The position numbers were made by a program, and so were the translations under genes. This document shows, piece by piece, positions 30,850 through 58,900 of a DNA stretch of 64,000 bases (the first letter of the stretch is position 1; every line of letters starts with the position of its first letter). The notes under the pieces were generated by a model. That model did no database searches, was not told where the DNA came from, and was given only the letters and a program-made list of their open reading frames with translations. The DNA comes from a virus. Location of the stretch: positions 141,010 through 205,009 of IMG/VR virus record IMGVR_UViG_3300044632_001003, one strand, 5' to 3'.

Positions 30850-30857
30850 TATTTATT
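30850..30857 (-). promoter_or_regulatory. late promoter-like element (AATAAATA)
   Basis: One mismatch to TATAAATA, ~29 nt upstream of the fibre start at 30820. It overlaps the stop of the 54-residue gene. Confidence 0.4.
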
Positions 30858-31020
30858 ATACCCTGTATTCCTCTATTTTATCAAGAACTTTGTTGAGATA
30901 ATGATGGGCTAACCACTTAGGATCATATCCAGACTTATTCATCCACTCTTTATCCAAGTCTGCCTTTAATTTAATAACCTCACACTTGATAATATCTTTG
31001 GTCAGGTGTCCGCGTGGCAT
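30856..31020 (-). CDS. small conserved-type hypothetical protein (54 aa)
   Basis: Starts MPRGHLTKDIIKCEVIKLKA. Mostly helical and charged, with W residues at ~26 and 36. It sits alone between a terminator/promoter hairpin and the collagen-like fibre gene. Composition and placement look like a real phage gene; function unknown. Confidence 0.6.
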   Translation of the reverse strand: MPRGHLTKDIIKCEVIKLKADLDKEWMNKSGYDPKWLAHHYLNKVLDKIEEYRV

Positions 31021-31030
31021 AATACTAAAA

Positions 31031-31059
31031 AACTCTGCTGCTTATTTAGCAACAGAGTT
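31031..31059 (-). terminator. terminator hairpin with late promoter in its loop
   Basis: A 12-position stem with one mismatch (AACTCTG... / ...CAGAGTT) closes a TATTT loop; on the minus strand it is followed by TTTTTT. It ends the ferredoxin-Hli-peroxiredoxin operon. The loop plus two stem bases spell CTAAATA on the minus strand. Confidence 0.75.
31043..31049 (-). promoter_or_regulatory. late promoter-like element (CTAAATA) inside hairpin loop
   Basis: Minus-strand CTAAATA, 23 nt upstream of the ATG at 31020, contained in the terminator hairpin. Another hairpin at 58792-58820 has the same nine-base centre. Confidence 0.5.
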
Positions 31060-40675: not shown

Positions 40676-41364
40676 TTTCCTTTATTTACAAAGATAAAAT
40701 CTGTTCCGAAATGAACTCCAGTATTTCCATAAGCCCTATAGAAATTGTGAGTTTTCAAAAAATTATTTACATCATCAAAAAGACACTGCCCATCATACAT
40801 TGGATTAATCTCCAACTCTGTATGAATCACCTGAACAGTTGAAAGAAGTTTTTCGCCCATTGATTCTAATGCAATTAACTCAGCACCCTGAAGGTCCATC
40901 CACATCAAATCAATATTCTCAATTCCATTTTCTTCACAAAAAGAATCTAGTCTCACACAATCAACTTCCAATTCTTTTTGGACGTATTTTTCAATATGGT
41001 CATATGTGCCATTTGCTTTATAAAGACTAGATGCACCTCTATTTCCATCAAACCAAGGAGTAACAGTTTTCTCAGGGTCAATAGGATAAAAAGTGCATAT
41101 TCCATTGTAACTATTCACAGCTTTATTAATGACTGTAATGTTATCAATGTCTTTGGTATTCTCTAAACAAACTTGATAAGAATCTGGGTTTGCTTCAAAT
41201 GCAAATATCCTTGCATTCTTATATCGTTTGGAGAATTCAATAGACTCCAAACAATGCAAAGAACCAACATCAAAAATTACAGAAACCTCATTTGGATCTC
41301 TGAATTTTTGGTTGGCAAAAGTATAAAATGTATCTAAAGATGAGACTTGGTACTGGGTTGTCAT
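40672..41364 (-). CDS. FkbM-family methyltransferase
   Basis: 230 residues. VIFDVGSLHCLESIEFSKRY near residues 29-48 is motif I; ARIFAFEANPDSYQVCLEN near 51-69 is the F-E-P/A-N-P FkbM signature; ENIDLMWMDLQGAELIALE near 148-166 is the D-x-x-G-x-E motif. FkbM proteins O-methylate sugars or polyketides. Overlaps its neighbours by 4 nt. Likely caps or modifies a sugar of the island's glycan. Confidence 0.88.
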   Translation of the reverse strand: MTTQYQVSSLDTFYTFANQKFRDPNEVSVIFDVGSLHCLESIEFSKRYKNARIFAFEANPDSYQVCLENTKDIDNITVINKAVNSYNGICTFYPIDPEKTVTPWFDGNRGASSLYKANGTYDHIEKYVQKELEVDCVRLDSFCEENGIENIDLMWMDLQGAELIALESMGEKLLSTVQVIHTELEINPMYDGQCLFDDVNNFLKTHNFYRAYGNTGVHFGTDFIFVNKGK

Positions 41365-58317: not shown

Positions 58318-58767
58318 TCAAGCCCTTTTTTTATTTCCCCAAGTATCTGTCTGAGAGTGGCAATTTGGACATAAAAATCTTAAATTTTCTACTCGGTTGT
58401 CGTTATTTACACCATTAATATGGTCTATTTGTAGTGATATTGGATTTCCCATCCATTCAGATATACCACACTTTAAACATTCATACTTTAATATATCATC
58501 TTTCAATATTCTCTTTTTTAAATCTTTTCTATCATAAGTAGAAAATTCGCAAAAAATTTCAGAGTGAGTTTTCTTTTTGGTGCTTTTACCACCCTTCCTA
58601 AAAATAGGAAGTTTAATTCCTCTATTATCAAGGTCTTTTTTTACAATATCATAAGTAGTTCCGCTTTTATTAGTATATCCAAGTTTTTTACAAAACTGCC
58701 AAAAAGAAGAACTTTCTAAAAGAAAAGATTTTATTTCCTCATCAGAATATAAATTTTTAATAGACAT
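58318..58767 (-). CDS. HNH endonuclease in tRNA cluster
   Basis: 149 residues. The N-terminal half is helical and basic (FWQFCKKLGYTNKSGTTYDI, GGKSTKKKTH). The C-terminal HNH core has KYECLKCGISEWMGNPISLQ, IDHINGVNNDNRVENLRFLC and PNCHSQTD (D-H ... N ... C-x-x-C-H). The L-x-x-D-H-I-N-G-x-x-x-D-N-R form is common in homing endonucleases. An exact TATAAATA lies 20 nt upstream. Confidence 0.88.
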   Translation of the reverse strand: MSIKNLYSDEEIKSFLLESSSFWQFCKKLGYTNKSGTTYDIVKKDLDNRGIKLPIFRKGGKSTKKKTHSEIFCEFSTYDRKDLKKRILKDDILKYECLKCGISEWMGNPISLQIDHINGVNNDNRVENLRFLCPNCHSQTDTWGNKKRA

Positions 58768-58787
58768 ATAAAAAGTTTATCTATTAG

Positions 58788-58795
58788 TATTTATA
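58788..58795 (-). promoter_or_regulatory. T4-type late promoter element (TATAAATA)
   Basis: Exact TATAAATA on the minus strand, 20 nt before the HNH start at 58767; it overlaps the foot of the hairpin at 58792-58820. Confidence 0.6.
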
Positions 58796-58820
58796 CACTT
58801 CCTTATTTAGGAAGTGTATA
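58792..58820. other. perfect hairpin with CTAAATA in its loop
   Basis: A 12-bp perfect inverted repeat (TATACACTTCCT/AGGAAGTGTATA) closes a 5-nt loop TATTT. On the minus strand loop and stem top spell CTAAATA (58804-58810). Same nine-base centre CTTATTTAG as the hairpin at 31031-31059. Lies between tRNA-Thr and the HNH gene. Confidence 0.7.
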
Positions 58821-58827
58821 TTGTAAG

Positions 58828-58900
58828 AGCCCCCGACAAGACTTGAACTTGCGACATCGGCTTTACAAAAGCCGCGCTCTACCAGCTGAGCTACAAGGGC
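58828..58900 (-). tRNA. tRNA-Thr(TGT)
   Basis: Acceptor GCCCTTG paired with CGGGGGC through two G-T pairs, D-arm AGCTCAGCTGGTAGAGC, anticodon stem CGGCT/AGCCG with loop TTTGTAA (anticodon TGT), T-arm with GTTCAAGTC. Confidence 0.9.

Follow-up and report, generated by a model that had tools for sequence, protein, structure and literature searches.

A predicted late promoter within a hairpin between the tRNA-Thr and HNH endonuclease genes of a T4-like cyanophage

Features of the locus

The window analyzed here, a stretch of 64,000 nucleotides (positions 141,010 to 205,009 of IMG/VR record IMGVR_UViG_3300044632_001003), belongs to a 205,009-base viral contig of a T4-like cyanophage whose nearest records are Synechococcus myoviruses. 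The genome is AT-rich (39% GC), and most genes of the contig lie on the minus strand. On that strand, a tRNA-Thr gene is followed after 6 nt by a hairpin and, after a further 24 nt, by the ATG of an ORF encoding an HNH endonuclease (Table 1).

The hairpin, TATACACTTCCT TATTT AGGAAGTGTATA, is real and is exactly what an earlier note on this DNA had claimed, a perfect 12-bp inverted repeat around the 5-nt loop TATTT, which reads AAATA on the minus (coding) strand. No perfect stem in the window is longer, and no other reaches 11 bp; Markov simulation predicts 0.03 perfect 12-bp stems per window. When the coding strand is folded as RNA, the hairpin has a free energy of -16.1 kcal/mol (z = -6.2), and the stable stem-loop expected of an intrinsic terminator is thus present. 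However, no U-tract follows the stem on either strand (the next bases are AATACTAATAG on the minus strand and, on the plus strand, TTGTAAGAG), and we rejected the hairpin as an intrinsic terminator for this reason.

Two further claims of the same note, that CTAAATA occupies the hairpin center and that a second such word overlaps the stem foot, also proved correct, as both words were found on the minus strand. T4-type (gp55) late-promoter words were sought as sequences resembling TATAAATA, for which the cyanomyovirus forms are [N]ATAAATA or CTAAATA; the words at 58804–58810 and 58788–58795 have this form and lie on the coding strand upstream of a gene. In eight cyanomyovirus genomes, words within 120 nt upstream of genes strongly favor the coding strand, with 75 sense and 5 antisense occurrences of TATAAATA, 67 versus 3 of AATAAATA, and 44 versus 3 of CTAAATAA. 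This bias agrees with the published late promoters of cyanomyoviruses, reported as NATAAATA (PMC2984593), and of Aeh1, CTAAATA (PMC1524935). Since T4-type late-promoter words span positions -13 to -6 (PMC1524935), transcription is predicted to start near 58798 from the loop word and near 58782 from the foot word, should both words be active as promoters.

Table 1. Positions of the features discussed, numbered from the first base of the window
Feature	Position	Strand	Remarks
tRNA-Thr(TGT)	58827–58900	-	ARAGORN; 3′ end 6 nt upstream of hairpin
Hairpin	58792–58820	-	5′ arm 58809–58820, loop AAATA 58804–58808, 3′ arm 58792–58803 (minus-strand sense)
Late-promoter word CTAAATA	58804–58810	-	Fills loop and first closing pairs; predicted +1 at ~58798, inside 3′ arm
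Second late-promoter word TATAAATA	58788–58795	-	Overlaps last 4 nt of 3′ arm; predicted +1 at ~58782
Second, weaker stem of 9 bp with one G-U	58758–58786	-	Would cover part of HNH start codon; predicted from folding
HNH endonuclease ORF, 149 aa	58318–58767	-	Pfam HNH above cutoff; phrog_10822, E 1.1e-42; downstream of hairpin
Companion hairpin, 12 pairs, one G-U	31031–31059	-	CTAAATA at 31043–31049 in loop; U-tract after
U-tract	31027–31031	-	Directly after companion hairpin, counting last stem base
Small ORF, 54 aa, MPRGHLTKDIIKCEV...	30856–31020	-	Downstream of companion element

The hairpin was found in nine viral contigs, each of which holds one copy of the exact core (9/9) and the same HNH gene (9/9). 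These contigs are identical across the hairpin, and their three differences, which occur in two contigs, all fall within the HNH gene. The nine are related contigs of one lineage only, and the covariation described below comes from other loci. In the remaining contigs that carry the identical tRNA-Thr, a different sequence follows the tRNA and the hairpin is absent. The regions upstream of the HNH relatives L019–L021 (35–42% identity) contain no comparable hairpin carrying the promoter word. The HNH domain of the encoded protein is clear, and the protein may be a homing enzyme; the gene is probably selfish or mobile.

Several other hairpins behind cyanophage tRNAs came to light. Just after the identical tRNA-Thr, a set of contigs (L348, L349, L351, L352, L354–L356, and L358–L360) carries a sequence resembling TTGACATAATACTCATTATGTC...TACACT, in which a sigma-70-like -35 box is part of an inverted repeat and a -10-like word comes after it, giving another promoter that overlaps a hairpin behind a tRNA; a similar sequence follows tRNA-Thr in L357. 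Inverted repeats such as TTCGCTATTTGCAAATAGCGAA lie directly behind tRNA-Ala in S-WAM2 (~17932), Syn9 (~20151), and S-RSM4 (~176305), which suggests that they are a common 3′-end element of cyanophage tRNAs. In LC03 (OR003938; ~40771–40860), a 14-pair hairpin with TATAAATA in its loop lies directly behind an apparent partial tRNA sequence after tRNA-Leu.

Promoter words in hairpins across cyanomyoviruses

The earlier note had paired the hairpin with a matching one at 31031–31059. This companion does have a 12-pair stem with CTAAATA in its loop, but the stem is imperfect (one pair, G-U on the minus strand, becomes A·C when read on the plus strand) and is followed by the U-tract that the hairpin at 58792 lacks. 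Since a U-tract follows its hairpin, 31031–31059 looks like an intrinsic terminator. The word is kept within a strong hairpin in 40 of 45 distinct orthologous upstream regions. Across 18 orthologues, 98.1% of cells are paired, TTTTTT is invariant, and both sides have changed in 23 cells, compared with 6.0 in shuffles (0/500); in LC03, the same arrangement with a quite different stem precedes a homologous small ORF. The 54-aa ORF of the window is itself conserved; its relatives, found in LC03 and at least 80 viral contigs, are mostly preceded by the nested element. The two hairpins of the window are different subtypes, that at 31031 being terminator-like and conserved in many phages, whereas that at 58792 has no U-tract and is known from a single lineage.

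A further instance lies upstream of gp13, which encodes the neck protein. The word occurs in all 110 distinct gp13 upstream regions from viral contigs and sits in a strong hairpin in 100 of them, typically with a U-tract after it. Among 33 of these regions, both sides have changed in 37 cells versus 14.6 in shuffles (0/500), and 96.3% of cells are paired, compared with 34–59% in slid registers; TAAATA and TTTT are invariant columns. The alignments thus show that, at both the gp13 and 31031 loci, the predicted stems covary while the loop word and U-tract stay fixed. Kinship alone can beat shuffles without any structure, but such an artifact is unlikely here, given how pairing was maintained and how it dropped in slid registers.

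How general is this arrangement? We speak of a nested element where [AC]TAAATA lies upstream of a gene and at the loop center of a strong stem; 58792–58820 is one such element. In a word-blind test of 11 cyanomyovirus genomes, hairpins were identified without using the word, and word offsets were then recorded. Among 392 hairpins upstream of genes, [AC]TAAATA fell at the loop center 18 times, versus 5 and 1 in the flanking 5-nt bins, a count in which some cases are orthologues in related phages and hence not all independent. For the 107 hairpins with a U-tract, the corresponding numbers were 10 versus 0 and 0. The antisense word gave no comparable peak, with 2 at the loop center and 0–2 in every other bin. 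Promoter words 20–30 nt downstream of hairpins, the ordinary order of terminator then promoter, formed a second preferred mode. We also counted words in the loops of terminators that had been found first (9 for the promoter word versus 0–4 for control words). Since the promoter word is far commoner upstream of genes, this count was discarded as evidence and the offset test was used instead.

Starting from the words, a stem score of at least 20 was reached at 17 of 359 upstream words, compared with 0.28% for shuffled flanks and 1.3% for random upstream positions. With a lenient score of at least 18, 21 cases were observed in 11 cyanophage genomes, and ~13 would be expected at random upstream positions. 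The genome-wide excess is thus modest at the lenient threshold and clear only for strong or loop-centered stems. The element is not universal, as the scan returned no strong case in P-HM1, P-SSM2, or Syn19. A possible case outside the cyanophages is a 9-bp hairpin at KVP40 215034, which has TAAATAT in its loop and lies 41 nt before an ORF.

The comparisons indicate that a late promoter, as predicted from its word, nested in a hairpin that is often a terminator is a recurrent, selected element of cyanomyoviruses. The proposal of a recurrent element therefore held insofar as unrelated stems recur around the promoter word, as seen in the loop-center peak and the covariation; the unit proposed and the equation of the two subtypes were mistaken or overly narrow, and the excess at the lenient threshold is modest. 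That unit, CTTATTTAG/CTAAATAAG, had to be abandoned. CTTATTTAG has two copies in the whole 205-kb genome, one per hairpin (58792 and 31031), but in other cyanophages the 9-mer is mostly closed by stems of 2–5 bp and has no common context. The real loop word is [AC]TAAATA.

Known counterparts and a proposed mechanism

Late promoters associated with hairpins have been described for T4 and its relatives. When applied to T4, our scan returned two sites, gene e and I-TevII, neither with a U-tract. Early transcripts of gene e form an inhibitory hairpin that late transcripts do not contain (PMC3014915), and I-TevII is a late gene whose early transcripts carry an inhibitory hairpin missing from the late ones (PMC2988022). 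The leaders of the homing endonucleases I-TevI, I-TevII, I-TevIII, and segB, and of mobE of Aeh1, resemble the target in having a late promoter within or next to a stable hairpin immediately ahead of the endonuclease ORF, such that late RNA lacks the hairpin (PMC2988022). Their hairpins cover the ribosome-binding site, whereas the main hairpin at the target ends 24 nt before the ATG and leaves the ribosome-binding site outside, and only the weak second stem reaches into the AUG. A closer likeness in this respect is the seg43(25) hairpin of Aeromonas phage 25, which is very stable, stands immediately before a homing-endonuclease gene, and leaves the ribosome-binding site uncovered (PMC2988022); a late promoter in its loop is not part of the description there, and the likeness is one of description rather than sequence. 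In the leader of T4 gene e, which encodes lysozyme, TATAAATA lies within the inhibitory hairpin (PMC3014915), which recalls the target, but the gene does not encode an endonuclease and the 3′ arm covers the translation start.

The other relevant class is the intrinsic (rho-independent) terminators of cyanomyoviruses. These share a G+C-containing stem and a U-tract with the 31031 and gp13 elements, at both of which the promoter word occupies the loop, and they differ from the target, which has no U-tract. Ordinary terminators have no promoter in the loop; in the other common order, the terminator is followed by a promoter 20–30 nt on.

On balance, we lean toward reading 58792–58820 as the promoter-in-hairpin leader of the HNH endonuclease gene of this T4-like cyanophage. 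It best matches the layout of the T4 homing-endonuclease leaders, in which read-through RNA contains a leader hairpin that late-initiated RNA lacks. Read-through RNA from the upstream tRNA cluster would hold both arms and form the 12-bp hairpin right after tRNA-Thr, and the weaker second stem would then mask part of the HNH start codon. This second stem is AU-rich, and its predicted fold is weak (-5.7 kcal/mol, z -3.1). Late in infection, RNA polymerase carrying the phage late sigma factor gp55 would use the loop word CTAAATA, the foot word TATAAATA, or both. Since one predicted start, 58798, falls within the 3′ arm and the other, 58782, beyond it, late RNA would not include the 5′ arm, and the hairpin would be missing. 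In fold computations, the second stem, its 5′ arm shortened, is also gone from RNA starting at 58782, such that transcripts from the foot promoter would lack both structures. The expected outcome is late expression of the HNH protein. Any effects of the 58792–58820 hairpin on termination and translation are deduced, like the promoter activity, from sequence.

For the terminator subtype, a related scheme can be envisioned. Read-through RNA would form the terminator and stop; late initiation in the loop would remove the 5′ arm, such that the same DNA no longer terminates. A nested element of ~35 nt in total would thus end the upstream unit and start the late unit. We give even chances to the broader idea that cyanomyoviruses possess a bipartite switch of this kind, in which the loop of the upstream unit's terminator is the late-promoter word, and which has been selected as a unit at gp13 and other core late genes and, in a form lacking the U-tract, taken up by the HNH gene.

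Alternative explanations and implications

Could the hairpin instead belong to the tRNA cluster? It starts only 6 nt after tRNA-Thr, inverted repeats lie directly behind other cyanophage tRNAs (such as tRNA-Ala in S-WAM2, Syn9, and S-RSM4), and the nested terminator type is common at other loci. The hairpin might then be mainly a 3′-end element, either a terminator or a stem for processing or stability of the tRNA-Thr precursor, into which a late promoter was packed for compactness and which exerts no control over HNH. We regard this as rather unlikely, since the missing U-tract on both strands disqualifies the hairpin as an intrinsic terminator and it was seen solely alongside the HNH gene, with none behind the identical tRNA-Thr of other contigs. 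That same association, seen in 9/9 contigs and missing from other contigs with this tRNA-Thr, would fit an inverted repeat that is the boundary or remnant of a mobile HNH cassette and not a regulatory signal. This explanation is very doubtful, however, as the hairpin core is single-copy in each contig (9/9), leaving no matching copy at the other cassette end, the nine contigs form one lineage in which co-occurrence counts as a single event, and the loop word fits the promoter class.

The palindrome could also act as double-stranded DNA, serving as an operator through which a bound protein dimer, possibly of the HNH endonuclease itself, would repress the late promoter that it overlaps, much as I-TevI acts at its own operator. 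A perfect 12-bp dyad does overlap two promoter words, and T4 intron endonucleases are known to repress themselves at operators that overlap late promoters (PMC2988022). We consider an operator improbable because related elements tolerate G-U pairs in their stems, which points to pairing in RNA there and not to a DNA dyad. Coincidence, through chance or AT-rich composition, might be suspected in a genome of 39% GC with many promoter words, particularly given the small excess at the lenient threshold. Yet none of 60 simulated 205-kb genomes, each with ~107 promoter words, contained a word centered in a perfect stem of at least 10 bp. Together with the offset peak at the loop center and the covariation at two other loci, this makes coincidence extremely unlikely for the target and largely refutes it for the element class.

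The class is a variant of the known arrangement of a late promoter within a hairpin, and its terminator-loop form is provisionally new. The open-access literature searched offered no account of late promoters in terminator loops and no start-site data for cyanomyoviruses. To our knowledge, how early and late units are separated in cyanomyoviruses is not well understood. The T4 middle-transcription factors are reportedly missing from these phages (PMC2984593). If our proposal is true, a promoter word serving as a terminator loop would be a very economical temporal boundary, in which one short sequence blocks early read-through and starts late transcription, and it would be predictable from sequence and testable in phage isolates such as S-PM2, Syn1, and S-WAM2. 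The T4 logic of a late promoter inside an inhibitory hairpin would thereby reach beyond single genes, to an element conserved at a core structural gene. It also suggests how a probably mobile endonuclease gene beside a tRNA cluster may stay silent early in infection.
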